A DNA stretch of 64,000 nt, taken from assembly GCF_016735595.1 (NCBI RefSeq), contig NZ_JAERRB010000001.1, forward strand, positions 310,001-374,000, in the 5' to 3' direction. Positions 10,159 to 64,000 of the stretch are shown piece by piece. Source of the DNA: Chryseolinea lacunae. GTDB lineage: Bacteria > Bacteroidota > Bacteroidia > Cytophagales > Cyclobacteriaceae. Both the position numbers and the translations under genes were made by a program. The notes under the pieces were generated by a model. It was not told the DNA's origin and did no database searches. It saw only the letters and a list, made by a program, of their open reading frames with translations. The stretch's first letter is position 1, and each line of letters begins with the position of its first letter.

Positions 10159-10161
10159 AAT

Positions 10162-42857: not shown

Positions 42858-45392
42858 CTATCGTTTCTCCTTCAACCGGAGCACAGTGGTTGACCAGGGT
42901 TTACAGGAATATTCAAATTCCGAAGCAACGTTTCGCACCACATCTTCCTGTGGAACGAATTGCCTGGGTTGCTCAAATGAATTTTCATCATCTGGTGAAG
43001 AAGACGATATCACGATCGCTTTGCCATTCGATTCCAAAGACGTGTTGTTTATGCGTAGGGAAACCTTTCGGGAAGTGTTTGTGGCATTCACCAATTTAAT
43101 CACCACTTCATGGGTTTGCTCGTCGCGACCGGCAATGCCAAAAAAATCGAGCGGCTTTGTGTACATCATCAACAGTTTTCCATCCAGGAAACATTCCACG
43201 TTTGTGTTGTTCACACGCAGCTCGATGTCATACCAGCGATTCAGTTCGACAGGCTTTTCCAGGCGCACGGGTTGCGACACAATTGCGTCCGCTCCTTTCG
43301 TCACTGTTTCAAAAGCTGCCACTTTGTTCAGCCAGGCGCCGATGTGCGCGCGGAGATAATTCTGGTTGTCGCGAAACGCAAAGGGAATCATGAAGGCGTT
43401 GTAGCCACCCGTTTTTCTTGCCTTCAACTTCAGCACATAACGATCAAACGACTTCTCTTTCAGCACTGCCAACGGCCATGGCCCATCCTTGGTCTGCGTC
43501 AGCATGTTGTTTTGCGCCGACCATTCGCCACCTTCAAAATTCCAGTCCTGCCCTTTCAGGGATTCGCTTTTGTATAGCACATTGCCGTCTTTGACTATCT
43601 CGATGTCTTTGTATTCGGCTTGCGTATCCCATGTACTCAAGCCAATGCCTCCCTCGAAGAAAGGTTTGCTGGCGTCAACGGGCACGTTTACATTCGTGGC
43701 GAGGTTCACCGTAGCCTTGTTTTCGTTCAGCATCTTGATGGTGTAATATGAAATGCGGGCAAAGCTTTTTGCTTCATCGAATCGGATCAGGTTCACGGGC
43801 CAGTCGGTGTCGTGAACGTTCTCCAGCAAGGGCGCATAGCTGCTCATGGTGATGAGGTCCGAATTTCTTTCCATGCCCAGGATGAACGTTGCGTCGTTGA
43901 GCGCGGCCGTCATGTTGCCTGTGCCCACACCGCTGTTGCAGGCGTATTCGCCCACATAGAGCTTCCAGTCTTTTCGTTCGTATTTGTCATACCAATCCGC
44001 ATAGGCCATCGCCCACCCGGCAGCTTTGTAGGCATGCTCGTCAGCCATGTCCATTTTGCTAATGGTGGCTATTGTTGGTTTGCTCAGGTGGGCGATGCCC
44101 ATTGCGGCCACCACCTGTAGTTGTGGATAGCGTGCTTTTATGGCGTCATAAAAAACATTGAAACGTTTGGCATACTTCTCTCCCACCTGCTCGTTTCCAA
44201 CCTCCACATAGTGCAACGGGAATGGTTCGGGATGGCCGTTCTTTGCACGCAACGCTCCCCACTCCGACTCCTTGGGGCCGATAGCATATTCGATGGCGTG
44301 AAGAATGTCTGTGATGATGGGCGTCACATCCTTGTCTTCAACATACACTCCGCTTCGCATTTCGCAAGCGACGCCACAATTAAACACATACATGGCTTTC
44401 GCGCCGATGTCTTCGCAGAACTGCAGGAACTCGTGATAACCCAAGCCGTCGCTCGACCAATATCCCCACGGGCTATAGGTTCCGGAGCGCTGCTCCACGG
44501 GGCCTAGCGATCGCTTCCAATTGGGTGCACTTTGTGTGCTGATGCCCTCCACAAAACAACCCCCGGGCCACCGGACGAACGCCGGCTTCAGGTCGGCCAG
44601 GTATTGCGCAAGGTCGGCCCGTAAACCATTCTGCCTGCCCTTAAATGTTTTTGTCGGAAAGAGCGAAACAAAGTCGAGCCAAACCTTTCCGGGTTTTGAA
44701 AAGGAAAGTTGAAACGTGGCCTTTGCATCGGTGGCGTCTGCGCGAAGCGTGGCTGTCAATTTTTTCCAGTCTTTTGAATTTACGTTTTCAAATACTTTTT
44801 CGCCCAGCGTTTTTCCATCACCGCCCACCAGCCTGGCCGTGATATTGCCGGTATAGTTTTGCGTGCGGGTATAGAATGTGAGCGCATAGGTTTCGCCTTG
44901 CTGAACATTAATTCCCCAAAAGCCTTCGTTGACCACAGCAACCTTGCCCGTTTTGCCCAGCCGGGTAACTTCAACTTTCAAGGACCGGGGATTCTCCTTG
45001 TACAACGGATCGCTCAGGTCGAGTGAAATTTTTCCCGTTGCGCCGCCGCCGGTTGTCAACGTCCATGCGGGATAATCGGACTTGGCTTCGAAAGGCATTT
45101 TCCAATCCGACACTTTTTCCGAGCCGAAGTGGGGTGTGCGCGGTGGAATGATGAAGCCCGAGTCGAGCGTGCAGCCTTCGGGGATGCGGCTCTCTTCAAA
45201 GCCACGGTTCTGAATCAGCTCGGCATAGAGACCACCTTCGCCACCGTGACTGATCTCCTCGAAAAAAATGCCATGCAACTCTTTTGACACGGGTGCGCCG
45301 GTTTTGGCTGCATCCACAATGATGGTGGGGCCCTGTGCCGTGCAAACGTTCCAGACAAACAGGAGAAATGATGTGTGAAGAATCTTATGCAT
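42858..45392 (-). CDS. GH51 alpha-L-arabinofuranosidase
   Basis: This secreted enzyme has 844 residues with a signal peptide (about 1-19, ending CTAQ), then HGIFFEEISHGGEGGLYAEL, a diagnostic GH51 start. A carbohydrate-binding-like insert lies at about 95-240. The catalytic barrel has the acid/base E401 in VGNEQVG and nucleophile E482 in YVGEYACNSG. A further LamG-like insert (about 560-740) precedes the C-terminal sandwich, which ends TTVLRLKEKR. It releases alpha-L-arabinofuranose from arabinan, arabinoxylan or arabinogalactan side chains. It is divergent from an AraC regulator and its last codons adjoin a GH97 remnant. Family assignment is firm; which polymer is hit is inferred from the neighbours. 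Confidence 0.93.
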   Translation of the reverse strand: MHKILHTSFLLFVWNVCTAQGPTIIVDAAKTGAPVSKELHGIFFEEISHGGEGGLYAELIQNRGFEESRIPEGCTLDSGFIIPPRTPHFGSEKVSDWKMPFEAKSDYPAWTLTTGGGATGKISLDLSDPLYKENPRSLKVEVTRLGKTGKVAVVNEGFWGINVQQGETYALTFYTRTQNYTGNITARLVGGDGKTLGEKVFENVNSKDWKKLTATLRADATDAKATFQLSFSKPGKVWLDFVSLFPTKTFKGRQNGLRADLAQYLADLKPAFVRWPGGCFVEGISTQSAPNWKRSLGPVEQRSGTYSPWGYWSSDGLGYHEFLQFCEDIGAKAMYVFNCGVACEMRSGVYVEDKDVTPIITDILHAIEYAIGPKESEWGALRAKNGHPEPFPLHYVEVGNEQVGEKYAKRFNVFYDAIKARYPQLQVVAAMGIAHLSKPTIATISKMDMADEHAYKAAGWAMAYADWYDKYERKDWKLYVGEYACNSGVGTGNMTAALNDATFILGMERNSDLITMSSYAPLLENVHDTDWPVNLIRFDEAKSFARISYYTIKMLNENKATVNLATNVNVPVDASKPFFEGGIGLSTWDTQAEYKDIEIVKDGNVLYKSESLKGQDWNFEGGEWSAQNNMLTQTKDGPWPLAVLKEKSFDRYVLKLKARKTGGYNAFMIPFAFRDNQNYLRAHIGAWLNKVAAFETVTKGADAIVSQPVRLEKPVELNRWYDIELRVNNTNVECFLDGKLLMMYTKPLDFFGIAGRDEQTHEVVIKLVNATNTSRKVSLRINNTSLESNGKAIVISSSSPDDENSFEQPRQFVPQEDVVRNVASEFEYSCKPWSTTVLRLKEKR

Positions 45393-45698
45393 ACTATTTT
45401 GTCATCCTATTTCCAGGGTTCACGCTTTGTATCGCTGCAGGTGACAGACCGGGGAGATGGAAACGAAAGGTAGTATCAATGTTAATTGTCCGTTTTACAA
45501 ATATTGCCTGCCCTCAATACGATTTTACCCGTATTCAAATGATTGCAGGCTTGGGTTGGATAGCGTAGTACAATCTCCAAACCCCGTTGCGGCTGATCTG
45601 ATATTATCCTACCCTAATACTTTATTAACTGTACATTTGACAATTATTAAATTTTTGCGAATATTTAGCTAACAGAATTTAACACACCCCCCAATTCT
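45393..45698. promoter_or_regulatory. Divergent promoter region between GH51 and the AraC regulator
   Basis: In this 306-bp AT-rich interval, two inverted repeats lie in the GH51-proximal half: AATACG (45516-45521) with CGTATT (45530-45535), and GCCTGC (45506-45511) with GCAGGC (45545-45550). They are candidate operators for the AraC protein. TTGACA at 45637-45642 followed by an AT-rich TAAATTTT may be the promoter of the regulator. None is proven. Confidence 0.38.
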
Positions 45699-46592
45699 AT
45701 GAAGATTCTACCCTTTAAAATCCCAAAGACGTCACAAGAATCTTTCAGGCTTCAAGAGGACCAGGAGATTCATTTTTACGACAATCTTCATCAACACCCT
45801 GAAATACAGCTCACCCTGATCCTGAGCAGCGAGGGAAAAGTGATTGTTGGTGATTTTATAGGAGCCTTCAAGCCGGGCGACATTTTTCTGATCGGCCCCA
45901 ACCTCCCCCACGTGTTTCGAAACGATCAAAAATATTACGACAATCCCCGGGAGGGACAGGCGCATTCGCTTACGGTGTTCTTTGAATGGAAATCGTTTGG
46001 CGACACCTTCCTGTCTATGCCCGAACTATCGCACCTCAGCGACTTCTCCCGGCAAAGCGAACGCGGGTTGTTTATCCAGGAACCCATCAAAAGCCGCATC
46101 GCGCAATTGATGAAGTGTATGTTCCGCAAAACAGGAATGGACCGGCTGATCGTGTTGCTGAAACTGCTAAACATCATGTCGGCACACAACAACATGGAAC
46201 CGCTGGCATCGTCGGGTGTGTACAACGAATTTGACGAACTGGACGGGCGCAAACTTGCGGACATCTACCGCTTCACTATGAACGAATTTCATCGCAAGAT
46301 TTCGCTCGACGAAGTGGCCGACCTGGCCCACATGACCACGAATTCATTTTGCCGTTATTTCAAAAAACGCACACGCAAATCGTATGTCGATTTCCTCACC
46401 GAGATACGCATCGGGCACGCCCGCAAGCTTTTGCAACAAGACGACCTGAGCATCTCGCAGATATCCATTGAAGTAGGCTTTAACAACCTTTCGAATTTTA
46501 ATCGCAAGTTCAGGTCGGTTTGTTCCATCACACCAACCGAGTTCAAAAAGCTTAACGAAAACAAAATGGATATCGCCGCGGTGCACGCTTAG
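45699..46592 (+). CDS. AraC-family transcriptional regulator
   Basis: The 297-residue protein has an N-terminal cupin-like sensor (about 20-110, HQHPEIQLTLILSSEGKVIVGD and GDIFLIGPNLPHVF) and a C-terminal double HTH (about 190-290, ISLDEVADLAHMTTNSFCRYFKKRTRKS and ISQISIEVGFNNLSNFNRKF). The cupin usually binds a sugar. It sits between the GH51 gene (divergent) and the end of the GH127 operon (convergent), so it is the best candidate for regulating these arabinosidases, probably in response to arabinose or an arabino-oligosaccharide. No regulator gene is present in the hydroxyproline operon itself. Confidence 0.92.
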   Translation: MKILPFKIPKTSQESFRLQEDQEIHFYDNLHQHPEIQLTLILSSEGKVIVGDFIGAFKPGDIFLIGPNLPHVFRNDQKYYDNPREGQAHSLTVFFEWKSFGDTFLSMPELSHLSDFSRQSERGLFIQEPIKSRIAQLMKCMFRKTGMDRLIVLLKLLNIMSAHNNMEPLASSGVYNEFDELDGRKLADIYRFTMNEFHRKISLDEVADLAHMTTNSFCRYFKKRTRKSYVDFLTEIRIGHARKLLQQDDLSISQISIEVGFNNLSNFNRKFRSVCSITPTEFKKLNENKMDIAAVHA

Positions 46593-46602
46593 ACAAGCGT
46601 GC
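46583..46602 (+). terminator. Hairpin overlapping the AraC stop codon
   Basis: GCACGCTT (46583-46590) and AAGCGTGC (46595-46602) are perfect complements with a 4-nt loop containing part of the TAG stop codon. Only a weak T-rich stretch follows, so termination is likely but not certain. Confidence 0.42.
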
Positions 46603-46631
46603 GTCGTTTAACATTTCATTCACTATCTTTT

Positions 46632-48317
46632 TTACGGCTGAGCAAACTTCCAGCGACTCTTATATCCTGGCGAGAGCTTTTCTCCGATCAGAATCGCACG
46701 GACAAATTCTATGGGAATGCCATTTTCCTTTAGAATGCGATCATGAAAATCTTTCTCCTTCATTTTCCCTGACGCAACAAGTTCTTTGCGCAAGGCATAC
46801 AACTGCAAGCCGCCAATCATGTAGCTCACCTGATACAAGGGGTCGTAGCCCGCAGTGAACGACCGACGTACTTCTGCCTCAGCGTTTGCATACTCGTGGC
46901 CCACACGGCTCACCAGAAAGTCGATGCACTGCTGTGGTGTCATTTTTTCGAGGTGATAGCTGAGCGAGAAGATGATGCGGGCACAGCGATGCATGCGCCA
47001 GAACAACATGCCAATGCGGTCTTCCGGACTTTTTGCAAATCCTTTGTCCCACAAATTCATCTCCCAATACAACGCCCAGCCTTCGGTCCAGAACGGTGTG
47101 TAGAACGCGCTGCGATAGGGTTTGTAACGGCTCTGCATATACTGCTGAAGATGGTGCCCGGGAATGAGTTCGTGTTGCACGGTGGCGCGTGAGAAGTGTG
47201 GGTTGTTGCCCCGCATGCTCATTAATTTCTCGCCGTGTTCCATGGTGTTGGTGGGATACGAAATCAGAATTTCCTCACCGCCAAGAAAGAACGGGTTTAT
47301 CTTCTGTGCTGCAGGCGACATCATGCCCATGCGCCACGTTTCTTTCGCCAATGGTGGGATGGTGACCAGGTCGTTTGTTTCCAGAAAACGAATGGCTTCT
47401 GTGGCCAGGCCAAACACCATGGCTGGCTGCTCGCCCGGAGCAACATAGCTACCCTTCACTTTCTCAAGCGCCGCTTTCCAGTCATTTCCAAAACCCATCT
47501 CCTGCGAGGCCTTCAACATCTCGGCATCACACCACGCAAACTGTTGCTGCGCAATGGCGATCAGTTCTTCCGGCGAATAGGGAATGAATTCCAGCTCCAG
47601 GCTTTTCAATAAAGCACTCTTCCCAATGGGCTTGCCAATGATGCCGCTGCCATCGTCTTTCACCGATGTGTTCTGATAGTTGTCTTTCAGAAAGGAAGCA
47701 TACGCTGTCAAGGACGAATCAAGCTTGTGAAACGGCTTCACCGTCCACCAGGTGAACTGAGGATCGTAGCCTTTGTAAAAATCAAACGACTCGTGCAATG
47801 CACTTTGCAGAGACTTCACCACCAGCTTTGCCTTGTCTGCTTTTTGCCAGCTGTTGAACGGCGCCTTGGCAAATGTTTCTTTTGCCTTTGCAATGGCTTT
47901 TGTCATGTCTTCAAAATCCTGCGCCGTCTGTGGACTGTTGACGGTTTTCCCTGTGGCACGCTGTTCAACAAACGCATAGAGCGGCGTGGCAAATTTCAAG
48001 ACACTCGAAACCTCATCAAACTTTTGTTCATCCAGCGAATGAAAGTAGGCTTCCTTTTCAATCTGGTTTTGCAACAGCACATAGTCCACTTTTGCTTCGG
48101 CAGTCAGAGACTCGTAGGGAAGATTCTTTAGAACATTTCTGTAACCTTCGTAGAAAAGATTGAAGCGCGTGTAGTATGCCTTCGACTCTTGCACGGGATA
48201 CTTTCTATAGAGCGCATACTTGTCTTCACTAAACTGCTGAATCAACTCCGCCACATTTTGCCCGTGACCGGCAGTGACCATAAAAAACAAAAACAGACTG
48301 AGAAGACGGAGTTTCAT
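46632..48317 (-). CDS. DUF885-family secreted zinc peptidase-like protein
   Basis: The protein has 561 residues with a signal peptide (about 1-19, GHGQ). It is mostly helical, and carries the DUF885 metal motif QHELIPGHHLQQ with H382, E383, H388 and H389, followed by WTEGWALYWE, which gives the third ligand. A late RRSFTAGYDPLYQVSYMIGG completes the family pattern. DUF885 proteins are gluzincin-like metallopeptidases or carboxypeptidases of unsettled specificity. It is the last gene of the run that starts with the two DUF1680 enzymes (26-bp gap), so it may trim the peptide backbone once sugars are removed; that is inference. Confidence 0.85.
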   Translation of the reverse strand: MKLRLLSLFLFFMVTAGHGQNVAELIQQFSEDKYALYRKYPVQESKAYYTRFNLFYEGYRNVLKNLPYESLTAEAKVDYVLLQNQIEKEAYFHSLDEQKFDEVSSVLKFATPLYAFVEQRATGKTVNSPQTAQDFEDMTKAIAKAKETFAKAPFNSWQKADKAKLVVKSLQSALHESFDFYKGYDPQFTWWTVKPFHKLDSSLTAYASFLKDNYQNTSVKDDGSGIIGKPIGKSALLKSLELEFIPYSPEELIAIAQQQFAWCDAEMLKASQEMGFGNDWKAALEKVKGSYVAPGEQPAMVFGLATEAIRFLETNDLVTIPPLAKETWRMGMMSPAAQKINPFFLGGEEILISYPTNTMEHGEKLMSMRGNNPHFSRATVQHELIPGHHLQQYMQSRYKPYRSAFYTPFWTEGWALYWEMNLWDKGFAKSPEDRIGMLFWRMHRCARIIFSLSYHLEKMTPQQCIDFLVSRVGHEYANAEAEVRRSFTAGYDPLYQVSYMIGGLQLYALRKELVASGKMKEKDFHDRILKENGIPIEFVRAILIGEKLSPGYKSRWKFAQP

Positions 48318-48343
48318 GTGTGCCGTTTAGATATTAGATTTTA

Positions 48344-50746
48344 CTATCGCGATTCTTTCACCAACCTGACCCCGAACAAGGGACCGGCTTGATTTTTTGC
48401 TTTGGCCTGGAAGGTGACTTTCACACTTGTTTTTCCCGTCACCAGATGGGTCGGAACTTTGTAAGCGATATCGTAGAACTTGCTTTCTTTGAATTTATTC
48501 AGATCCACACTGGCAATCTTTTCGCCATCCACAAGAATGTCGAAATTGCGTCCACGGTTGTCCATGCCCCAATAGGTGGCGATGAGGTTGTAGGAAAAAC
48601 CCGAAGCCACCTTCATGGTGAAGCTGAACGAGCCGCCATCATTTGCCACTCTGAATTTACGCGTGTGCGACTCTCCTGTTTCCAAATTTTCGCCGGTGAA
48701 ATTGTGGTCGCGTTCGGGTTGCATTTCGCCGACGCGCAATTCGTCGACGGTGCTTTTCTCCAGCTCATAGGCTGCTTTCTTTTTCTCTTCGTAGCGCTGC
48801 TGTTCGTCTTTCCAGGCGAGTGGCGAAAACACATCCCAATACACCGTGTAGAATTCATCGGCCACGCTATAGAACGGTTGAAGGGTCACGTCGCTGGGCG
48901 CGCCGATTTTGTTGGTTTTAAAAACCAATGCGTCTTTAGACTCTGCTACAAACAACTTGTTTGCGTCCGCCTCATCCGAAACCAGCACAGGAATGCCCGT
49001 GGCAGGATCAGGTTCTGATGTTCCCAGGTTGCCCGCCAGCAATATCGGACCATAGAAAAACGCTTTACGATCCTTATTATCAGGCATCGCCACTGCGTGC
49101 AACGACGATTCGAAATCAACGGCAATCTCGTCGTTGTTCTTCCACTTTTGCGTCAGGGCAATGTATCCGTCCTGTGCCACACTTGCCGCAACGGCTTTTC
49201 CGTTTACGCGGACCACGATTTCTTTCGGTGCCCACTGCGGTTTCCGGATGCGGATGGTTCGTGTTTGCGCCTGGCTGGTTTGAATGGTGAGCCTGATGGT
49301 TTTTTCCTGGGGAATCTTGCTGTTCAAGGTCAGTCGGAAATCCTTTTCTTTCCAGTTCAAAACTGAAGGAATGAAAAGGTTCACATACACACTTCCGTCT
49401 TTTCCTCTGAAGAAAATGCTTTCACCATACTTCACATGGTTTTCGATGCCCGATCCCACACAGCACGTAAACGTGTTGAACTCATCGCTAAATTCTTTGC
49501 GCGTTCCCATGCGTAAGGGCACGAAATAGCACATCATGCCGGTCTTGTGATTCTGCGATGCCAGGATATGGTTGTACAATCCGCGTTCATAATATTCCAT
49601 CAGCTCGGCCGAAGGTTGCAGCGCAAACAAGTGCCGGGTCAGCTTCAGCATGTTGTAGGTGTTGCACGTTTCCATAGTGTTGTCTGTGAGCTTGTCGTTG
49701 AGCTTGTCGGCTTCGCTCAGGTATTCGTAGTTGCTGTTTCCGCCGGGCGCGTATGAGTGGTGGTTGACAACGGTCTTCCAGAAAAAATCGCCAATCACAA
49801 AATCGCTTTTTGCGCCGGTAAGTTCATAGCGACGCACGGTGCCGATCACTTTTGGAATTTGTGTGTTGGAGTGTCGTCCGGGGAGAATATCAACGCGTTT
49901 GGCCAACGAGTCAAGCACCACTTTGTCGTGGAACTTATAAGAAAGATCAAGGTACTTTTTGTTTTTGGTGAAGGCGTAGGTATTTACCAACACTTCGTTC
50001 ATGCCACCGTATTCGCAGAGCAGCATCTTTTGAATTTGTTCGTCGTTTAGATTCTTCAGGGTCGTTTCGGTCCAGTCGGCCATGCGTTGTTCGATGGCGA
50101 GGGCCTTGTCGTTATTGCAGTAGAGGTAGGCATCCAGCAAGCCGGCCATCACTTTGTGAATGGTGTACCATGGCGACCATGAGCCGTTCAGGTCAAAACC
50201 ACGGGAGCGAATTTGCCCCTGCGACACTTCCATGAACACCGAATCTTCGCGGGGAATGGCGCCGACGTAACCTGTCTTGCGGGCCACCTGGCATGCTTCC
50301 AACTCGTCAACAATGTAGTTGACACGCTTTAGAAACTCCGGGTTTCCAGAGACAGCATATTCAATGGCGCAGGCAGAGAGATAATGTCCGAGCGTGTGGC
50401 CTGCAAGACCATCGCTCTCCCACCCGCCATATTTCTCGGCCTTCGGTTTCAATCCCGAGTGTGTTCTGAATTGTGACAGCAACCGGTCGGGTTCAATCAC
50501 CAACAGGTATTTGATATCGGCGTCGCGCGCATCGGTGAACACGCTGGGCAACAGGTTCACTTCATTGAGGGCGAAGGGATATGCGGCAATGGCCACCTGC
50601 GGTTTCACCTTGACCCGTGCATTGTTTTCGTCAGGCAAATAGGATTGCCCGTTTGCGTCGCGCACTGTCGCGACCACTCCGAACAACGAAAACACTGCAA
50701 GGGCCACCGCATGACGGCGGGTATGAGAAGAGATGAATGAAAGCAT
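48344..50746 (-). CDS. DUF1680 (GH127/GH146) beta-L-arabinofuranosidase-like enzyme
   Basis: The protein has 800 residues with a long N-terminal signal (about 1-34, ending ANGQ). The (alpha/alpha)6 barrel shows WESDGLAGHTLGHYLSACA and the metal/nucleophile set known from beta-L-arabinofuranosidase HypBA1: E359-x-C361 in METCNTYN, then adjacent C428-C429 in FTCCVGSG, where the cysteines coordinate zinc and one is the nucleophile. The C-terminal 130 residues add a beta-sandwich. The sequence looks closer to the GH146 branch than to HypBA1. It likely releases terminal beta-L-arabinofuranose. It lies 51 bp after a second DUF1680 gene and 26 bp before DUF885. Confidence 0.88.
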   Translation of the reverse strand: MLSFISSHTRRHAVALAVFSLFGVVATVRDANGQSYLPDENNARVKVKPQVAIAAYPFALNEVNLLPSVFTDARDADIKYLLVIEPDRLLSQFRTHSGLKPKAEKYGGWESDGLAGHTLGHYLSACAIEYAVSGNPEFLKRVNYIVDELEACQVARKTGYVGAIPREDSVFMEVSQGQIRSRGFDLNGSWSPWYTIHKVMAGLLDAYLYCNNDKALAIEQRMADWTETTLKNLNDEQIQKMLLCEYGGMNEVLVNTYAFTKNKKYLDLSYKFHDKVVLDSLAKRVDILPGRHSNTQIPKVIGTVRRYELTGAKSDFVIGDFFWKTVVNHHSYAPGGNSNYEYLSEADKLNDKLTDNTMETCNTYNMLKLTRHLFALQPSAELMEYYERGLYNHILASQNHKTGMMCYFVPLRMGTRKEFSDEFNTFTCCVGSGIENHVKYGESIFFRGKDGSVYVNLFIPSVLNWKEKDFRLTLNSKIPQEKTIRLTIQTSQAQTRTIRIRKPQWAPKEIVVRVNGKAVAASVAQDGYIALTQKWKNNDEIAVDFESSLHAVAMPDNKDRKAFFYGPILLAGNLGTSEPDPATGIPVLVSDEADANKLFVAESKDALVFKTNKIGAPSDVTLQPFYSVADEFYTVYWDVFSPLAWKDEQQRYEEKKKAAYELEKSTVDELRVGEMQPERDHNFTGENLETGESHTRKFRVANDGGSFSFTMKVASGFSYNLIATYWGMDNRGRNFDILVDGEKIASVDLNKFKESKFYDIAYKVPTHLVTGKTSVKVTFQAKAKNQAGPLFGVRLVKESR

Positions 50747-50797
50747 GACTATTCTTTAATGAACTTACAAATCATTGAAACTATACGAGGCGCAACC

Positions 50798-53212: not shown

Positions 53213-53259
53213 TTTTTTATTGCTTTTAATGTCTCCAATAATTGTCTGATCGAGGGTAT

Positions 53260-53267: not shown

Positions 53268-53340
53268 AGGCTAATTTGCCGTTGTGTTTTGATTTATATT
53301 AACAACTACCGGTAGGATTTTAACCCCACCCTAAACCCAC

Positions 53341-55587: not shown

Positions 55588-55593
55588 AACGGA

Positions 55594-56850
55594 TCAGTTA
55601 AATCTTTCGGGATTGAACGCCGCGATGTTCATGGTCAGATTTTTTTCATTAACGATCTCCGACACCAGTTTGCCGGTGGCAGGTGCAAGGCTCACCCCCA
55701 TCATGGAGTGACCGGTGGCAATGATGAGATTTTTGAAACGACTGGAGCGACCGATGTAGGGAAGTCCGTCAGGCGAGCACGGGCGCAGTCCATTCCACAC
55801 CTCGCGCACATCGGGCACCGCCACGTTCATGTCGGGATAATATTTTGGGATGGTTTCCACAATTCCCTTCACGCGATTCATGTTCACGCTGCGATCGGTC
55901 CCGTTAATTTCCATCGTACCTCCGAAGCGAAGCGCATTGCCCATGGGCGTAACGGCCACACGCCCTTCCAGCAACAGTGTGGGCACCTGAATATTTTTCT
56001 TTACGTTGGGAAGTGTGAAGCTGTAGCCCTTGCCCGATTGCATGGGAAGATCCAGATCCAGCTTCGAACAAAACAAACCCGACCACGCGCCAGTGGCAAT
56101 CACATATTCATCAAACTCCAGCACCTTGTCGCCAATGGTGATGCGTTCAATTGATTTTTCGCCGGTAACGAAGTCGCTCACGTCGTGGTGTGTTAAGATC
56201 TTCACACCGTTTTTTTTCAGGTGTTCCACGAGGTTCGATACCAACAACTGTGGAATGAGGTGTGCGTCGCCGGGAAAGATCACGCCGCCCCGCGCGGTTA
56301 CCCGCACATCGGGCTCAAGGGCCTGCACGTCGGCGGGTGTCAACACATGTGCTTCCACGCCGTGGTGGTTGGCGAGGTGTGCTGCTTCAATTTCTTCTTT
56401 CTCGGTTTCGGCGGTTTGAAAAAGCATGAGCAATCCTTTTTCCTGATAACCAAAGTCAAATTCTTTGGCGCTATTCATCTCGCGAAACAATTGTTTGCTC
56501 AGCATGCTAATCTCTTTCAACAACGGCGCCGACCGTTGCACGTGCTTTTCATTGGCATGTGCATAAAATTTTAATCCCCATTTAATGAGATCGCCATTCA
56601 ATCGCGGACGTACATAGAAAGGGCTTTTCGAATTGAACATCCAGCGTATGCCTTTGGCGATCATGCCCGGTGCCGCCAGGGGCACAATGTGACTGGGCAC
56701 CACCATGCCAGCGTTTCCGATAGAGCATGTATCGTCCATGTTGCCTTTGTCGAAAACCATTACGGTGTGACCCGCCTTCTGAAGATAATACGCAGTGCTC
56801 AACCCGATTATTCCACCACCGATTATTGCAATATTTTTCATGTTGTTCAA
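55594..56850 (-). CDS. DadA-like FAD-dependent D-amino-acid (D-hydroxyproline) dehydrogenase
   Basis: The 418-residue protein has the FAD-binding signature IIGGGIIGLSTAYYL at the N-terminus (M4 is an alternative start), the DadA-type MVVPSHIVPLAAPGM region and the C-terminal FAD motif LPYIGRSSRFKNLIIATGHSMMGV. It lacks a signal peptide and acts in the cytoplasm at or near the membrane. Set between an S9 peptidase (6 bp) and 4-hydroxyproline epimerase (73 bp), its likely role is oxidation of cis-4-hydroxy-D-proline to 1-pyrroline-4-hydroxy-2-carboxylate. A general D-amino-acid dehydrogenase is the alternative, but the operon context favours hydroxyproline. Confidence 0.85.
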   Translation of the reverse strand: MNNMKNIAIIGGGIIGLSTAYYLQKAGHTVMVFDKGNMDDTCSIGNAGMVVPSHIVPLAAPGMIAKGIRWMFNSKSPFYVRPRLNGDLIKWGLKFYAHANEKHVQRSAPLLKEISMLSKQLFREMNSAKEFDFGYQEKGLLMLFQTAETEKEEIEAAHLANHHGVEAHVLTPADVQALEPDVRVTARGGVIFPGDAHLIPQLLVSNLVEHLKKNGVKILTHHDVSDFVTGEKSIERITIGDKVLEFDEYVIATGAWSGLFCSKLDLDLPMQSGKGYSFTLPNVKKNIQVPTLLLEGRVAVTPMGNALRFGGTMEINGTDRSVNMNRVKGIVETIPKYYPDMNVAVPDVREVWNGLRPCSPDGLPYIGRSSRFKNLIIATGHSMMGVSLAPATGKLVSEIVNEKNLTMNIAAFNPERFN

Positions 56851-56923
56851 TTCGCTAAAAAGTAGACATCCTGCAGTTGGAGATGCGAAATATCTCCATC
56901 GCCGAAGACGTCTTTGTTTTTTA

Positions 56924-57922
56924 CTATATCACCTGGAAGCCGTGTGCATACGGGTCGCTGTCGTCCATGATGATGGTGTTGTAGCCCGTCACCATCGCCC
57001 ACCCTTCTATGCTGGGCACGATGGCCGGCTTGCCGTTCAGTGATGTTTCTTCTTCTACGCGGCCGATAAATTTCGAGCCGATGATGCTTTCGTGCACAAA
57101 GGGTTCTCCCACATTCAGGTTTCCTTTGGCATGCCATTGCGCGAGGCGCGCCGATGTGCCCGTGCCACAAGGCGAGCGATCAATGGCCTTGTCGCCATAG
57201 AACACGGCGTTGCGCGCGGTCGATGTTGGATCGATCACCGCACCTGCCCAAAGAATGTGACTGCATCCGTTGATGGTTGGGTTTTCGGGATGCACAAAAG
57301 AATACTTCGCGTTAATGTCTTTTCGAAGCTCGCGGCTCCAGCCGATCAACTGCTCCGCACGAAAATGCTCAAGGCCCGGGAAGTTTTTCTGTACATCAAC
57401 AATGGCGTAAAAATTTCCGCCATACGATACGTCCACCGTCAACTCACCAAGGTCGGGACAGATGGCTTTCAGATTCTCCGCGGCGAGGAATGACACGATG
57501 TTCCGGATTTTTACCGACGTCACCTTCTGTCCCTTCTGGGTATATTCGATACGGATCAAGCCCGCGGGAACTTCCACCAGAAGTTCGCCCGGACGTTTGG
57601 GCACAACCAGTCCTTCTTCGATGGCGATGGTGACCGTGCCAATGGTGCCATGACCACACATGGGCAGGCATCCACTGGTTTCGATGAACAACACCGCCAC
57701 ATCATTTTGCGGATCGCACGGCGGATACAAAATGCTGCCGCTCATCATGTCGTGGCCACGCGGTTCAAACATCAGTCCCTTGCGTATCCAGTCGTATTCG
57801 CGGAGGAAGTGTTGTCGCTTCTCGCTCATGTTCTTTCCCTCCAAAGAAGGTCCACCCCCGGCCACCAGGCGAACCGGATTGCCGCAGGTGTGTGCATCTA
57901 TACAAAAAAAAGTCTTCTTCAT
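56924..57922 (-). CDS. 4-hydroxyproline 2-epimerase (proline racemase family)
   Basis: The 332-residue protein has the opening FFCIDAHTCGNPVRLVAGG, and the two catalytic cysteines of the family: C89 in LPMCGHGTIG and C252 in DRSPCGTGTSAR. Proline racemase has Cys at both sites, as do hydroxyproline epimerases; dehydratases have Thr in the second. Downstream genes for D-hydroxyproline breakdown make hydroxyproline epimerase the best call rather than proline racemase. It converts trans-4-hydroxy-L-proline to cis-4-hydroxy-D-proline in the cytoplasm. It lies 15 bp after the ketoglutarate-semialdehyde dehydrogenase gene. Confidence 0.92.
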   Translation of the reverse strand: MKKTFFCIDAHTCGNPVRLVAGGGPSLEGKNMSEKRQHFLREYDWIRKGLMFEPRGHDMMSGSILYPPCDPQNDVAVLFIETSGCLPMCGHGTIGTVTIAIEEGLVVPKRPGELLVEVPAGLIRIEYTQKGQKVTSVKIRNIVSFLAAENLKAICPDLGELTVDVSYGGNFYAIVDVQKNFPGLEHFRAEQLIGWSRELRKDINAKYSFVHPENPTINGCSHILWAGAVIDPTSTARNAVFYGDKAIDRSPCGTGTSARLAQWHAKGNLNVGEPFVHESIIGSKFIGRVEEETSLNGKPAIVPSIEGWAMVTGYNTIIMDDSDPYAHGFQVI

Positions 57923-57937
57923 TCCGTATTAAAAAAA

Positions 57938-59419: not shown

Positions 59420-60354
59420 TGTGCGGTGGCCGTTGCTTTTGCTTTTTGACCGTTGCTTCGATTCAACACCGGACGTTTTTTAAGCGCTTCGCGAATAACA
59501 CCCAACACAGCTGTGCGTTCGTCGCCAGCGAGGATGAGGCGCGGCGGGCGAACAGTTTCGGTGCCCAGACCCACTTCGGCTTCGGCCAGTTTGATATACT
59601 GCACCAGTTTGCTGAACGTGTCCAGTTCCAGCAAGGGCATGAACCAGCGGTTGATCTCTACGGCTTCCTGAATTCTGCCTTCCATCACCAGATTATAGAT
59701 GGCCACGGTCTCTTCGGGAAACGCGCATACCAATCCGGCCACCCAGCCCTTTGCACCTTGCACAAGGCTATCCATGGCAATGGTGTCTACACCGCTCATC
59801 ACGCTGAACCGGTCGCCGAATTTGTTGATCATGCGGGTCACGTTCACGATGTCGCGCGTGGATTCTTTCACGGCGTCGATGTTCTTTGTGTCGGCGAGGT
59901 CTTCGAACATGTCGAGTGTCACGTCCACTTTATAGTCAACCGGGTTGTTGTAGATCATGATCTGCAAATCCGTTGCCTGCGCGATGGATTTGAAATAGGT
60001 AACGGTTTCGCGGTGGTCGGATTTGTAGCGCATGGGCGGCAACAGCATGAGGCCACTGAGGCCATTGCGTTGTGCGTCTTCGGCAATTTTTATAGCATCG
60101 CGCGTGGCGCCTTCTGCAATGTTGAGCACGACGGGAACACGTCCTTCCACTTTCTGGACGGTGAAGTTCAACAAGTCGCTCTTTTCTGCGCTGGTCAGTA
60201 CACTTGATTCTCCCAGCGTTCCACCGATGATTATGCCGTGCACCCCTGCAGCCAACTGAGCATCCAGGTTTTTCTCGAATGTTTTGAAATCCAACTGGTC
60301 ATCTGCGGTAAATTTTGTTGTTACTGCAGGAAAAACTCCCTTCCATGTAATCAT
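59416..60354 (-). CDS. DHDPS-family lyase, likely 1-pyrroline-4-hydroxy-2-carboxylate deaminase
   Basis: The 312-residue aldolase-type barrel starts WKGVFPAVTTKFTADDQLD and carries GGTLGESSVL, the IYNNPVDY tyrosine and the Schiff-base lysine K163 in DAVKESTRD. In hydroxyproline operons this family is the deaminase that turns 1-pyrroline-4-hydroxy-2-carboxylate into 2-oxoglutarate semialdehyde; elsewhere it covers dihydrodipicolinate synthase and keto-deoxy-arabinonate dehydratase. The adjacent epimerase and dehydrogenases decide the call. It is the first gene of the four-enzyme run, with a promoter box at 60380. The C-terminal tail is Lys/Ala rich. Confidence 0.88.
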   Translation of the reverse strand: MITWKGVFPAVTTKFTADDQLDFKTFEKNLDAQLAAGVHGIIIGGTLGESSVLTSAEKSDLLNFTVQKVEGRVPVVLNIAEGATRDAIKIAEDAQRNGLSGLMLLPPMRYKSDHRETVTYFKSIAQATDLQIMIYNNPVDYKVDVTLDMFEDLADTKNIDAVKESTRDIVNVTRMINKFGDRFSVMSGVDTIAMDSLVQGAKGWVAGLVCAFPEETVAIYNLVMEGRIQEAVEINRWFMPLLELDTFSKLVQYIKLAEAEVGLGTETVRPPRLILAGDERTAVLGVIREALKKRPVLNRSNGQKAKATATAQ

Positions 60355-60379
60355 GATGAAATGTGTTTAATTATGAAAA

Positions 60380-60387
60380 CAAATTTA
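60380..60387 (-). promoter_or_regulatory. Candidate -7 promoter box for the hydroxyproline operon
   Basis: TAAATTTG on the minus strand matches the TAnnTTTG consensus exactly, 25 bp upstream of the ATG at 60354. No clear -33 box at the usual distance is seen. Confidence 0.48.
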
Positions 60388-60492
60388 TGGGCTGGCAACA
60401 GCGCCGTTTGTACTTGAATTACCTTCTACTGATACGATTTATTCACATTTTGAATGTTTTCCATCCCTTCGTTGAATATTGGGTATCGCTTT

Positions 60493-61941
60493 TCATGATT
60501 TTGCCTCACTCACCGTCTTCATCCGCTGGTCGTTGCGCCGCATCATGAAGTAATAGACCGGAATGCCCAGCAGGATGATGGCCAGCCCGGGCAGGGTGAA
60601 ACTCGTTTCAAAAATCAGGAGCAGCAACGCCAGGGCGGCAGCGATGATGATGTAGAGGGCGGGCAATACGGGATAGCCAAAGGCTTTGTATGGACGCTCA
60701 ACGCCGGGCATGGTTTTGCGTAGGCGGAAAATTCCGAAGATGGTGAGTGCGTAGAATATCAACACACCGAAGATGACCAGCGCCAGCAGTTCGTTGTATT
60801 TTCCCGTGAGGCATAGCAGCGAAGCCCACACCGCCTGCATCCACAGGCTGTTTGCCGGCACGCCGTGTTCGTTCAATTCGCGGGCGTGCGAAAAGAATAC
60901 GTTGTCTTTTGCCATGGTGTAGTAGACCCGTGCGCCCGACATGATGAGGCCGTTGTTGCAGCCAAAGGTGGAGATCATGATCATGACGGCTATGACAATG
61001 GTGCCCGAAGACCCAAAGATGCGCTCGGCCGCCACCACCCCAATGCGGTCGCTCTTTGCAAACGCGATGTCGTGCAACGGCACCACGGCCAGGTACATTA
61101 CGTTCGCCAGCACATACACCACCGTGACGATGACCGTGCCCAGCAACAGGCTCAACCCAATGTTGCGTTTGGGGTTCTTCACTTCGCCGGCAATGAACGA
61201 GATGTTGTGCCACGAGTCGCACGAAAACAACGATCCCTTCATGGCGATGGCAATGGCCCCGAAGGCGGCAAGGCCCGCCAGGGGAAGTTGACTCACGGCA
61301 TCACCTTCTTTTGTGAGCGACGACAGCGTCCACGCGTTTTGCCAATTGGCTTCCCAGATGCTGGCGTCGGCTCCCCACCAGAAACCAAAGCCAATGAGGG
61401 CAACGAGTGAAATTATTTTGATGAGCGTGAGCGATGTCTGCACAAACACACCGTGACGAACGCCGCGGGTGTTGATGAACGTGAGCAGCAAAATGACGCC
61501 GATGGATAACAGTTGGGATGCCGCAAGGTGAAATGATCCGATGTTGAAAAGAATAGCATCCTCTCCCACCCCCGGGATGAGGTAGGACGTGAACTTGGCA
61601 AAGGCCACACCCACGGCCGCGATGGTGCCGGTTTGAATGATGGTGAAAAATGTCCAGCCGTAAAGAAACCCCATCAGTGGACTATAGGCCTCGCGCAGGT
61701 AAACATACATGCCACCTGCCTTTGGAAACATGGCCGAAAGCTCGCCATAGCTCACGGCGGCTATGATGGTGACCACGCCCGCCAGCACCCACATGCCCAA
61801 CAGCAGGCCGGCACCGCCAACGCTGCGCGCAATTTCTGAGCTCACGATAAAGATTCCCGATCCGATCATCGACCCCGCCACAATCATGGTTGCATCGAGC
61901 AACCCCACGTTTCGCTTGAATTCGCGCTGCGCTTCCGCCAT
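60493..61941 (-). CDS. APC-superfamily amino-acid permease
   Basis: The 482-residue protein has about 12 transmembrane helices and the APC motif GSMIGSGIFIVSSEIA in helix 1, with FFSHARELNEHGVP in the loop typical of the LAT/serine-threonine exchanger branch. It lies 138 bp upstream of the hydroxyproline operon on the same strand and so is likely involved in amino-acid import, perhaps proline or hydroxyproline. That substrate is inferred from position only. The 294 bp to the divergent aminopeptidase hold a weak -7 candidate (TATCTTTC, minus strand, 61976-61983). Confidence 0.9.
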   Translation of the reverse strand: MAEAQREFKRNVGLLDATMIVAGSMIGSGIFIVSSEIARSVGGAGLLLGMWVLAGVVTIIAAVSYGELSAMFPKAGGMYVYLREAYSPLMGFLYGWTFFTIIQTGTIAAVGVAFAKFTSYLIPGVGEDAILFNIGSFHLAASQLLSIGVILLLTFINTRGVRHGVFVQTSLTLIKIISLVALIGFGFWWGADASIWEANWQNAWTLSSLTKEGDAVSQLPLAGLAAFGAIAIAMKGSLFSCDSWHNISFIAGEVKNPKRNIGLSLLLGTVIVTVVYVLANVMYLAVVPLHDIAFAKSDRIGVVAAERIFGSSGTIVIAVMIMISTFGCNNGLIMSGARVYYTMAKDNVFFSHARELNEHGVPANSLWMQAVWASLLCLTGKYNELLALVIFGVLIFYALTIFGIFRLRKTMPGVERPYKAFGYPVLPALYIIIAAALALLLLIFETSFTLPGLAIILLGIPVYYFMMRRNDQRMKTVSEAKS

Positions 61942-62157
61942 ACTGTTTTTTACGTTCAGGTTAGAATACTACTTTGAAAGATACGTCCCAAACCCATTGG
62001 GGCCCGTGTAAAAATTAGCCTTACCTGATACGATTTTCACCACTTGAAAATACCTGTCCGACCCAACCCCGCACGTAAACGTTTGAAGAAAAATGGGTTA
62101 TCCACAAACGGCCAAAAGAAGACCCAACCGGCTCCGCTTTTCCGGACGGTTTTGAGA

Positions 62158-62189
62158 TTTGATCTTGTGCCCGAAAGATTTTAGGTTTA
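62158..62189 (+). promoter_or_regulatory. Candidate Bacteroidota promoter of the Xaa-Pro aminopeptidase gene
   Basis: TTTG (62158-62161) is followed after 20 bp by TAGGTTTA (62182-62189). This fits the -33/-7 pattern TTTG-N19-21-TAnnTTTG with one mismatch at the last base. The ATG lies 47 bp downstream. Confidence 0.5.
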
Positions 62190-62235
62190 TCCGGGCATAG
62201 TCTTCCGGGACGGCCTTTTCACAAACTTTTTCACC

Positions 62236-63633
62236 ATGCATACTCCCGCATTTTCGTCCGAAGTATATACCCGCCGCCGCGACGTGCTGAAACGCAACGT
62301 GGCATCCGGCATCATCATCTTGCCCGGCAACAACCTGTCGCCCATGAACTATGCCGACAACACCTACGCCTTCCGGCAGGACAGTTCATTTCTGTATTAC
62401 TTCGGCCTGGATGTGGAAGGCCTGGTGAGCATCATCGACGTTGACAACGACCGCGAGATCCTGTTTGGCAACAACGCCACCGTAGACGACCTGGTGTGGA
62501 CGGGGCCCAAACCCACCGTGCAAGAACTGGCTCACCTTGTGGGCGTGCGCGATGCACAACCGCTGCGCGCACTGGCCTCGTTTCTTCAAAACGCAACCGC
62601 AAGAAAACAAACCATCCATTGGCTCGCACCATACCGCCCCGACATTGCCATCGCACTTTCCGAATGGCTAACGTTGCCCCTGCAGGCCATTCAAAAAGAT
62701 TCGTCGCGTGTGTTGGTGCAGGCCATCATGAACCAGCGCATTCAAAAGAGCGACGAAGAAATCGCGGAGCTTGAAAAGGCTGTGGACGTGAGTGTGGACA
62801 TGCACGTGGCGGCCATTCAATCCGTTCGTGCCGGCATGTTTGAATATGAACTGGTGAGTTGTGTGGAAGCTGTGGCCACGGCGCACTATTGTCGCACGGC
62901 CTATCCGTCGATCATTACCACCAACGGGCAAACGCTGCACAATCACTATTATGGAAACTCGCTGGAAGAAGGACGCATGGTGCTTTGCGACAGCGGCGCC
63001 GAACTTCCCTCGGGCTATTGCGGCGACCTGACGCGGACATTCCCCATTGGAAAACGCTTCACCACAAAACAAAAAGAAGTCTACCAAATCGTGCTCAACG
63101 CATTGCTCACTGCCGAAAGTCTATTGAAGCCGGGAGCGCTTTTTAAAGACATTCACCTCACCGCGTGTCGCGAATTGACCAGAGGCCTTCAGCAACTCGG
63201 GCTTATGAAGGGCGACGTGGAAGCATCGGTGCATGCAGGCGCGCATGCATTGTTCTTTCAATGTGGTCTTGGTCACCTCATCGGGCTCGACGTTCACGAC
63301 ATGGAAAACCTGGGCGAAGACCTGATCGGCTATGATGATGAAGTGGTGCGCAATCCACAGTTTGGCATCAAGAGCCTTCGCCTGGGGAAACGATTGAAAG
63401 AAGGCTTCACCGTTACCGTTGAGCCGGGGTTGTATTTCATTCCCGAACTGATGGAGATGTGGAAGCAGGAAAAAAAACTTGACGCGTTCATTAACTACAA
63501 CGCCCTGGATGAGTATAAATCATTCGGTGGTATCCGTATTGAAGACAACTGCCTGGTGACAGCAAGTGGCTCCCGGATTTTAGGCAAACCACTTGCCAAG
63601 ACAATCGACGAGATTGAAGCTTTGAGAGGCTGA
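62236..63633 (+). CDS. Xaa-Pro aminopeptidase (M24B)
   Basis: The 465-residue protein has the AMP_N domain (about 10-150, MNYADNTYAFRQDSSFLYYFGL) and the pita-bread catalytic domain. The five metal ligands can be placed: D252 in LCDSGAE, D264 in CGDLTRTF, H347 in GLGHLIGLDVHD, E396 in VEPGLY and E436 in RIEDNC. It removes an N-terminal residue that precedes proline from peptides, in the cytoplasm (no signal peptide). Next to an operon for hydroxyproline catabolism it is a fitting last step for collagen-like or HRGP peptides. It is divergent from the amino-acid permease and convergent with the POT transporter. Confidence 0.94.
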   Translation: MHTPAFSSEVYTRRRDVLKRNVASGIIILPGNNLSPMNYADNTYAFRQDSSFLYYFGLDVEGLVSIIDVDNDREILFGNNATVDDLVWTGPKPTVQELAHLVGVRDAQPLRALASFLQNATARKQTIHWLAPYRPDIAIALSEWLTLPLQAIQKDSSRVLVQAIMNQRIQKSDEEIAELEKAVDVSVDMHVAAIQSVRAGMFEYELVSCVEAVATAHYCRTAYPSIITTNGQTLHNHYYGNSLEEGRMVLCDSGAELPSGYCGDLTRTFPIGKRFTTKQKEVYQIVLNALLTAESLLKPGALFKDIHLTACRELTRGLQQLGLMKGDVEASVHAGAHALFFQCGLGHLIGLDVHDMENLGEDLIGYDDEVVRNPQFGIKSLRLGKRLKEGFTVTVEPGLYFIPELMEMWKQEKKLDAFINYNALDEYKSFGGIRIEDNCLVTASGSRILGKPLAKTIDEIEALRG

Positions 63634-63669
63634 CACTGGGACTTTGTTCTTTACTTGCAGCCAGGCAAT

Positions 63670-64000
63670 CTATGCCTTGGCAGCAATCACGCTGTTTGTA
63701 AATCTTAGTCGCTTGCTCAGCACCAGCATTACGATACCCGCCAGGCCCACGCCGATGGCAATGCCCAAAAATAATTCTACCATGGCACCGGGGTTCCGCA
63801 AGATCCTTTCATTGCTCATGTTGCTGGTGAGCAATCCGGCCAGCAAGTTGCCGAGCGATAGCGACAGAAACCAAACGCCCATGAGCTGTGCTGCAAATTT
63901 TTGAGGGGCCAGTTTCTTGACGGCGCTTAGTCCAACGGGATATAAACAGATCTCGCCGAAGGTGTGCAGCATGTAGGTGAAAATAAGCCACAGCGGCAAA
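63670..64000 (-). CDS. POT/PTR-family peptide transporter, C-terminal fragment (cut by window edge)
   Basis: The visible 110 residues (the start lies beyond 64000) show the C-terminal part of a proton-dependent oligopeptide transporter: TYMLHTFGEICLYPVGLSAVKKLAP, then GVWFLSLSLGNLLAG and a final helix IGVGLAGIVMLVLS before the charged tail. POT proteins take up di- and tripeptides with protons. Facing the Xaa-Pro aminopeptidase gene tail to tail, it would supply proline-containing dipeptides. Only the family is certain. Confidence 0.88.
   Translation of the reverse strand, partial: LPLWLIFTYMLHTFGEICLYPVGLSAVKKLAPQKFAAQLMGVWFLSLSLGNLLAGLLTSNMSNERILRNPGAMVELFLGIAIGVGLAGIVMLVLSKRLRFTNSVIAAKA

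Follow-up and report, generated by a model that had tools for sequence, protein, structure and literature searches.

Bacterial systems that act on arabinosides on hydroxyproline have been described. In Bifidobacterium longum, the HypAA, HypBA2, and HypBA1 enzymes (GH43, GH121, and GH127, respectively) and the GH146 enzyme Bll4HypBA1 attack arabinosides on hydroxyproline, with the glycan serving as the food and being taken up by sugar ABC transport (PMC6085000; PMC10850190; PMC7263609). In Xanthomonas euvesicatoria, the XCV2724-XCV2729 cluster encodes XeHypBA1 (GH146; PMC10850190), XeHypBA2 (GH121), and XeHypAA (GH43), with an exported enzyme acting on Ara-Hyp and an adjacent prolyl oligopeptidase gene, which the authors call a pseudogene (PMC6085000). 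Operons for trans-4-hydroxy-L-proline catabolism appear to encode an epimerase, a D-Hyp dehydrogenase, a deaminase, and a semialdehyde dehydrogenase. How bacteria consume both the sugar and the protein of extensins and other hydroxyproline-rich glycoproteins, which are widespread plant wall polymers, is largely open as far as our literature searches show. Here, we describe a locus in Chryseolinea lacunae, within a 64,000-nucleotide stretch of contig NZ_JAERRB010000001.1 (the window), that carries genes of both kinds.

The genes for the hydroxyproline arm lie on one strand. A trans-4-hydroxy-L-proline epimerase (56924-57922, –) scored 597 bits against NCBIfam model NF010578 (cut-off 376). It is accompanied by an amino-acid permease (AA_permease_2; 60493-61941, –), a DHDPS-family protein (PF00701; 59416-60354, –) inferred to be the pyrroline-hydroxycarboxylate deaminase of step 3, an aldehyde dehydrogenase (PF00171; 57938-59419, –) inferred to be the alpha-ketoglutarate semialdehyde dehydrogenase of step 4, and a DadA-type FAD dehydrogenase (Pfam DAO; 55594-56850, –) inferred to be the D-hydroxyproline dehydrogenase of step 2. 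Only the epimerase passed a curated cut-off. The best models for the DadA-type, DHDPS-family, and aldehyde dehydrogenase proteins, none of which by name is a model of these very enzymes, gave 264 of 383, 173 of 206, and 91 of 750 bits, respectively, and thus steps 2-4 are named by family and neighborhood. Among 80 Bacteroidota loci with an epimerase gene (epimerase loci; these and other retrieved regions are denoted by L numbers), 71 have the DadA-type, 66 the DHDPS-family, and 62 the aldehyde dehydrogenase gene. An Xaa-Pro aminopeptidase-type M24 gene without a signal peptide by eye (62236-63633, +) is divergent from the permease, occupies the same place in two genomes of the same genus (G001 and G002), and is found in 11 of 80 epimerase loci. 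A POT gene (–) follows and runs past the window end (window 63670 to 65148).

The same strand continues into peptidase and arabinosidase genes, the products of which have N-terminal signal peptides by eye (S9, GH127, GH146-like, and GH51) or are putatively exported (DUF885). An S9/dipeptidyl-peptidase-IV-like peptidase with a GGSAGG motif (53341-55587, –) is present in G001 and G002 but absent from this place in a third genome of the genus, G003. The GH127 gene product (50798-53212, –) has catalytic, middle, and C-terminal domains above cut-offs (PF07944, PF20736, PF20737), a C-terminal F5/8C-like stretch, and ETC (341-343) and CC (409-410) motifs that probably correspond to the zinc/nucleophile site; it matched structure 6ex6 at 765 bits and HypBA1 (3wkw) at 339 bits. 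The next protein (48344-50746, –), with ETC at 359-361 and CC at 428-429, is GH146-like, matching 5opj at 488, 8k7x at 224, 6ex6 at 51, and 3wkw at 31 bits. The ETC motif was missing from one of 23 proteins examined, that of L039, which is cut by a contig end. A DUF885 protein with a HELIPGH motif (46632-48317, –), a putative exported zinc peptidase, lies 26 bp after the GH146-like gene; it occurs in 22 of 80 loci, with HE...GH in 22 of 22 of these members, but is absent from this place in G001 and G002. A predicted model of the DUF885 protein (pLDDT 87), based on an alignment of 20 of the 22 members (L054 and L056 omitted), had only four structural matches at E<=0.001, all to structures titled as DUF885 or of unknown function. 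An AraC-family regulator (45699-46592, +) that is 96/96/80% identical in G001/G002/G003 and a divergent GH51 alpha-L-arabinofuranosidase with a CBM_4_9-like domain (42858-45392, –), present in G001 and G002, follow. A GH51 homologue (52%) lies inside the hydroxyproline operon of L029.

These results confirm the genes named in a first-pass annotation, which had proposed a locus for hydroxyproline-rich glycoprotein utilization, and support its interpretation, with corrections. The first-pass annotation passed over the DUF885 gene, described both DUF1680 enzymes as GH127-type although one is GH146-like, placed the two arms side by side on one strand although the AraC and M24 genes are on the other strand, and called the AraC sugar-type. 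By contrast, we found that this AraC is the best of five matches in its own genome to the regulator beside the hydroxyproline operon of L017, from another genus (E 6.1e-62), and therefore regard it as being of the hydroxyproline-operon type.

Multiple observations indicate that the linkage is not chance. First, 20 of 80 epimerase loci hold 23 GH127/GH146 genes within 10 kb (17 of the 53 loci with full flanks), whereas 0.8 loci are expected from the 232 GH127-family matches in 78 of those genomes, and 0 of 97 PF00221 (HutH-family, ammonia-lyase) matches in the same genomes have one within 10 kb, although short contigs in draft genomes limit both sets. Second, in a clustering of 1086 neighbor ORFs made without annotation, GH127/146 ranked second after DUF885 once the four pathway enzymes and AraC were set aside. 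Third, in 12 of 79 loci the GH127/146 gene lies in one same-strand run (gaps under 400 bp) with the epimerase gene. Fourth, the linkage is kept in G001, G002, and G003, with G003 running permease-DHDPS-epimerase-DadA-GH127-GH146-DUF885, and occurs in several gene orders in loci that by record title include Mucilaginibacter, Pedobacter, Chitinophaga, Flavihumibacter, Sinomicrobium, Rufibacter, and unnamed Bacteroidota. Sinomicrobium L041 has DHDPS-ALDH-Epim-DadA-S9-GH127 family-DUF885, the order of the window. Linkage is nonetheless patchy. Sixty of 80 loci have no GH127/146 within 10 kb, including 16 of the 17 listed first by epimerase score (L003-L019; several are short contigs), and thus the hydroxyproline operon often stands alone; 66 of 78 genomes have a GH127-family gene, which in 46 therefore lies elsewhere. 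By eye, none of 13 relatives outside the genus with an above-cut-off epimerase has one within 10 kb (in one, G014, it lies at 33 kb), although some of those contigs are short.

A shared operator-like site appears to tie the GH51 gene to the hydroxyproline operon. This 36-bp site precedes the permease (62006-62041, –; conserved in G001-G003), the DHDPS-family gene (60410-60445, –; conserved in G001 and G002), and GH51, in the gap between GH51 and AraC (45495-45530, –; conserved in G001 and G002), and its core has three exact matches in 7.9 Mb, all at this locus. The pattern was built from the very sites it finds, and thus only the absence of other exact sites and tests outside the genus are independent. 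A matrix of ten sites from the genus found sites in AraC/DHDPS gaps of other loci at p<0.05 in 8 of 19 (one of them at 0.0499) and at p<0.01 in 4 of 19, whereas 11 of 19 gaps did not reach p<0.05. A weaker site upstream of the GH127-GH146-DUF885 genes (53290-53325, –) is the fourth best of the window (shuffle p 0.0005), with similar sites in G001 and G002 (p 0.0045 and 0.003) but not in G003 (p 0.53); it overlaps a terminator-like hairpin (53330-53311), leaving read-through from S9 into GH127 unsettled. A fifth-best site (42514-42549, –) lies after GH51 and before the 39448-42048 gene, with a similar site in G001. A single-sequence predicted model of the 39448-42048 protein (pLDDT 36) was not usable, and thus its HEGIH remains only a motif. 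Promoter and terminator scans were at shuffle level (17 against 14.0 and 22 against 21.3).

In a phylogenetic tree, the GH146-like protein of the window sits in a 100/99 clade of 12 rows, 9 of them from epimerase loci (4 of these from this genus), and a BT0349-like relative is in another clade. The GH146 members XeHypBA1 and Bll4HypBA1 act on Ara-Hyp (PMC10850190; PMC6085000). Three epimerase-locus GH146 proteins (L017, L069, and L075), however, group beside unlinked ones rather than in this clade, and the epimerase-locus label requires 5 changes on the tree (shuffled mean 9.7). The tree omitted GH127-type proteins, one fragment (L035), and the 1022-residue L041 protein, and its other rows were picked by us from higher-scoring matches rather than at random. 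Of 20 regions retrieved as unlinked comparisons, 5 (L144, L145, L148, L155, and L156) proved to lie beside hydroxyproline-type genes; L155 has a GH51-M61 peptidase fusion beside GH127, SusC, DUF885, S9, and AraC. Nine Mucilaginibacter-type epimerase loci have a long GH27 alpha-galactosidase beside the operon, fitting extensin (Ser-alpha-Gal, Hyp-Ara), although no GH27 was among the window proteins scanned (only a GH97 remnant).

We consider it probable that this is a co-regulated locus for consuming arabinosylated hydroxyproline (glyco)peptides, most likely of extensin type, sugar and amino acid together. In this model, which is inferred from sequence for each enzymatic step, the substrate, and the pairing of AraC with the sites, GH127 and the GH146-like enzyme remove beta-L-Araf residues, the latter most likely taking the last Ara from Hyp; the S9 and DUF885 peptidases, exported by their signal peptides, cut the bare Pro/Hyp peptide; and the permease imports Hyp or small peptides, which M24 can finish inside the cell. 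The epimerase, DadA, DHDPS, and aldehyde dehydrogenase enzymes would turn Hyp into 2-oxoglutarate, while arabinose can enter through AraA encoded elsewhere in the genome. The AraC would sense a product and bind the shared sites before permease, DHDPS, and GH51. It is about as likely as not that, across Bacteroidota, one AraC-type regulator of hydroxyproline catabolism also governs arabinosidases, alpha-galactosidase, peptidases, and, in some species, SusC/D. Such a regulon would be the first glycoprotein system known to us that includes the catabolic pathway of the very amino acid carrying the glycan, and it could act on arabinosylated plant peptide hormones as well as extensins. The locus also suggests substrates for unassigned groups (DUF885, the long GH27, and epimerase-linked GH146) and warns against reading every bacterial hydroxyproline operon as one for collagen or free amino acid use.

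An alternative that is not excluded, but that we consider unlikely, is that the same system acts mainly on arabinogalactan protein, with the arabinosidases trimming beta- and alpha-Araf tips of type II arabinogalactan and the hydroxyproline coming from the AGP core. The nearest structure of the GH127 is 6ex6, apparently an enzyme of a B. thetaiotaomicron AGP locus, and the window also holds a PUL with GH2 and a GH30_2-type enzyme (1029-17972). However, of the 13 unlabeled neighbor clusters found in at least 5 loci, we annotated 10, among which the only glycosidase was the GH27 matching alpha-galactosidases, which fits extensin Ser-alpha-Gal better. In addition, the GH30 best matches an uncharacterized exported protein (3clw), and thus beta-1,6-galactanase is not shown, and the 1029-17972 PUL has its own hybrid regulator and a best site-matrix hit of 5.4 (at 5025, +), against 17-43 for the sites of this locus. 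A collagen-peptide or hydroxyproline operon that merely neighbors an arabinan-trimming set, as expected in a plant-debris feeder, is compatible with the many unlinked loci but is improbable given the excess linkage, the absence of linkage in the control family, the same-strand runs, the G003 order, the shared operator-like sites, and the GH51 inside the L029 operon. Least likely is a role for the arabinosidases in pectin (RG-I arabinan or RG-II) under a regulator that answers to plant wall protein, because, although 5opj is BT0349 of an RG-I locus (PMC10850190) and the GH127 scores 486 bits (cut-off 950) on the aceric acid hydrolase model, the one member tested of another GH146 clade (L146) matches 5opj at 875 bits and lies beside a GH51 32% identical to that of the window, the GH146 of the window groups mostly with epimerase-locus proteins, and no GH43 or pectin enzyme was among the window proteins scanned.

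We found no description of this coupling in the open-access literature searched. Like the B. longum system, the locus has GH127/GH146 enzymes, inferred here to act on arabinosides of hydroxyproline, but in B. longum these accompany GH43, GH121, and sugar ABC uptake, and hydroxyproline catabolism is not mentioned in what we read of that work. The X. euvesicatoria cluster resembles the locus in placing a proline-type peptidase gene beside the arabinosidases but has GH121 and GH43 instead of GH127 and GH51, again without mention of a hydroxyproline operon in what we read. Compared to trans-4-hydroxy-L-proline catabolic operons, the four enzyme families are present, but glycosidases and putative exported peptidases are in the same unit, and there is an AraC-type regulator with candidate sites of its own. 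As in Bacteroidota polysaccharide utilization loci, exported glycosidases occur with a local regulator, and several relatives (L041, L049, L067, and L069) include SusC/D. This copy, by contrast, has no SusC/D pair among the genes between 42858 and 64000, the nearest pairs seen being at 8470-13302 and past the window end (3331-7944 of region L002, in which the POT gene spans 670-2148), and it carries the catabolic pathway of the glycosylated amino acid.

The gene calls of the first-pass annotation, which had placed arabinosidases next to an operon for hydroxyproline catabolism, held. From 61941 down to 46632, the minus strand carried genes for a permease, a DHDPS-family protein, an aldehyde dehydrogenase, a 4-hydroxyproline epimerase, a DadA-type dehydrogenase, an S9/DPPIV-type peptidase, a GH127 enzyme, a GH146-like enzyme, and a DUF885 protein, with successive gaps of 138, -4, 15, 73, 6, 128, 51, and 26 bp. 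Beyond DUF885 was an AraC gene on the plus strand and, divergent from it, a GH51 gene. An M24 gene faced the other way from the permease, and a POT gene ran over the window end, past which (L002:11186-14514, in the record L002 that continues beyond the window) lay a PEP-utilising enzyme and a mannose/sorbose-type PTS IIC-IID protein. The epimerase passed NCBI's curated 4-hydroxyproline epimerase model, whereas the other three pathway steps were named by family and by neighbourhood, because no curated model reached its cut-off. GH51, DUF885, both arabinosidases, and S9 began with what looked by eye like signal peptides; the four pathway enzymes did not.

The enzyme at 50798-53212 is GH127, matching 6ex6 with 765 bits, 4qjy with 465, 5mqo with 350, and HypBA1 with 339. 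The enzyme at 48344-50746 is GH146-like, matching 5opj (BT0349) with 488 bits and HypBA1 with 31. Both keep the Glu-x-Cys and Cys-Cys motifs. Importantly, the GH146 members XeHypBA1 and Bll4HypBA1 are reported to act on arabinose linked directly to hydroxyproline (PMC10850190; PMC6085000). In a tree of 31 GH146-type proteins, the window's enzyme fell in a 12-row clade with support of 100/99, in which nine rows came from epimerase loci (four of them from this genus) and the other three were L145, L150, and L156, of which L145 and L156 also lie beside hydroxyproline-type genes. L145 (L145:5017-14000) is a second locus in the Mucilaginibacter aquariorum genome, away from the epimerase operon, in which GH146 is divergent from SusC, a DHDPS homologue, and an AraC. 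By contrast, three further enzymes from epimerase loci (L017, L069, L075) fell in another clade, together with L148, which lies beside S9 and DadA homologues, and with unlinked enzymes. A relative that matched BT0349 much better (L146, 875 bits to 5opj) was in a separate clade.

To ask whether the linkage is more than chance, we examined the 80 best epimerase matches in a collection of one genome per species, with up to 10 kb on each side (53 had full flanks), and clustered 1086 ORFs without annotation. The number of loci per cluster was 79 for epimerase, 71 for DadA, 66 for DHDPS, 62 for the dehydrogenase, 38 for AraC, 22 for DUF885, 20 for GH127/146 (23 genes), 18 for SusC, 12 each for GH27-type, permease, and S9, 11 for M24, and 9 for M1 peptidase; of 13 unlabelled clusters present in at least 5 loci, 10 were annotated. 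In 78 of these genomes there were 232 GH127-family matches, which if spread evenly would put one in 0.82 loci, compared to the 20 found; the two loci outside the 78 had none. As a control, 97 matches to PF00221 (histidine ammonia-lyase family, some of them fragments) in the same genomes had no GH127 within 10 kb and one within 20 kb. Because the genomes are related, this result is an enrichment and not a probability, but the arrangements differed (between epimerase and DadA in loci L017 and L020, upstream in Mucilaginibacter, after DadA and DUF885 in L030, and on the opposite strand upstream in L034, L049, L067, and L079), which speaks for repeated association. In 12 of 79 loci, GH127/146 shared one same-strand run with the epimerase (gaps under 400 bp).

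The linkage is nevertheless patchy. No GH127/146 gene was present within 10 kb in 60 of 80 loci, including 16 of the 17 listed first, and 66 of 78 genomes had a GH127-family gene, so that in 46 it lies elsewhere. Outside the genus, none of 13 relatives with an above-cut-off epimerase had one within 10 kb as judged by eye, the nearest being genome G014 at 33 kb, although some of these contigs are short. Within the genus, the linkage held in genomes G000, G001, G002, and G003; in G004 the contig ends 1.4 kb after DadA, and G005 had no epimerase match. The genome studied here has three GH127-family matches in 7.9 Mb, and two of them are in this locus.

G001 and G002 keep GH51, AraC, GH146, GH127, S9, DadA, epimerase, dehydrogenase, DHDPS, permease, and M24 in the same order, with no DUF885 found there. 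G003 lacks S9, the dehydrogenase, and GH51 at this place but runs permease-DHDPS-epimerase-DadA-GH127-GH146-DUF885 on one strand, with AraC at the end. The Sinomicrobium locus (L041) has SusC, SusD, and a divergent AraC, followed by DHDPS-dehydrogenase-epimerase-DadA-S9-GH127 family-DUF885, the window's order; its GH127-family protein (L041:14749-17814) has 1022 residues, with Laminin_G_3 and Big_4 domains, and several genomes contain GH127-family frames of about this length. In the Chitinophaga locus L029, a GH51 52% identical to the window's lies between permease and epimerase. In L155, from the Chitinophaga hostae genome, a GH51 arabinofuranosidase is joined to an M61 peptidase in one open frame of 1321 residues (L155:748-4710, minus strand), beside GH127, a SusD-sized gene, SusC, DUF885, S9, and AraC.

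Multiple observations bear on regulation. First, the regulator beside the hydroxyproline operon of L017 found the window's AraC as its best match in the whole genome (E 6.1e-62; next 1.5e-51). Second, comparison of only the permease and GH51 upstream regions gave one shared word in the same orientation, present also in G001 and G002 (G002 has one further match on the other strand), which extends to about 36 bp and recurs before DHDPS. The core AAATCGTAT-8-G-2-AAT has exactly three exact matches in the genome, all in this locus; with up to one mismatch there were 12 matches, compared to 5 for the reversed pattern. As the pattern was made from these sites, only two tests are independent of it. 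In the window, the fourth best matrix hit, which was not used to build the matrix, lies in the 128-bp gap before GH127 (p 0.0005 by shuffling; also in G001 and G002 but not in G003), and the fifth lies after GH51. In 19 AraC/DHDPS divergent gaps of other loci, 8 had a site at p<0.05 (one at 0.0499) and 4 at p<0.01, whereas 11 did not. The pairing of the AraC with these sites is an inference. The operator-like site after GH51 precedes the gene at 39448-42048 (minus strand), which encodes a possible extracellular metallopeptidase with a T9SS sorting tail, an HEGIH motif, and an N-terminal F5/8C domain about 32% identical over 123 residues to the C-terminal stretch of the neighbouring GH127; beyond that shared domain, this protein was not found in the G001-G003 stretches. 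A 1616-residue protein with eight fn3 stretches, a GDSL lipase domain, and a T9SS tail is encoded at 33217-38067 (minus strand).

As collagen hydroxyproline probably carries no arabinose, the arabinosidases in the unit point to plant hydroxyproline-rich glycoproteins. Extensin motifs carry alpha-galactose on serine and beta-arabinose chains on the hydroxyprolines, while in arabinogalactans beta-galactose is on hydroxyproline (PMC9266454). Nine loci, which we call Mucilaginibacter-type (L027, L032, L039, L042, L048, L060, L067, L072, and L080; two have no genus in the record title), contain a long GH27, and in eight of them, all but L067, the order is GH127-GH27-DHDPS-dehydrogenase-epimerase-DadA. 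The GH27 of L048 matched putative and proven alpha-galactosidases best and beta-L-arabinopyranosidase less well. From the 47 GH27 matches in the 78 genomes, 0.18 would be expected in the loci. Three further members of the cluster are a shorter protein in L012 and fragments in L024 (contig end) and L029. No GH27 was seen in the window, only the decayed C-terminal remnant of a GH97 glycosidase (GH97_C, 58 bits) at 42560-42859 (minus strand), between GH51 and the T9SS-tail protein. We therefore favour extensin as the substrate but retain AGP as the main rival, also because a separate PUL at 1029-17972, with GH2, a GH30_2-type enzyme, an FG-GAP/ASPIC protein, SusD, SusC, and a hybrid two-component regulator, could serve arabinogalactan; the GH30 of this PUL best matched an uncharacterised structure.

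In the pathway that we propose, GH51 would remove the alpha-1,3 arabinose, GH127 and the GH146-like enzyme would remove the beta-linked ones down to hydroxyproline, S9 and DUF885 would cut the peptide, and the permease would bring in the product. Epimerase, D-Hyp dehydrogenase, deaminase, and semialdehyde dehydrogenase would end at 2-oxoglutarate, and arabinose could enter metabolism through AraA on contig 3. Outer-membrane uptake is the missing part here; relatives have SusC with SusD-like_2 or SusD_RagB partners in the unit.

In searches of the open-access literature, some of which could be surveyed only in part and which excluded most subscription journals and all preprints, we found no paper joining hydroxyproline catabolism to arabinosidase genes. 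The genome-neighbourhood study of the proline racemase superfamily has no word beginning with 'arabino' or 'glycos' in its main text (PMC4113996). A Latescibacteria study lists GH127 for extensin, without a hydroxyproline step in the portions examined (PMC4454575). The linkage described here is real and well supported, its function is inferred, and it represents a new variant built of known parts.
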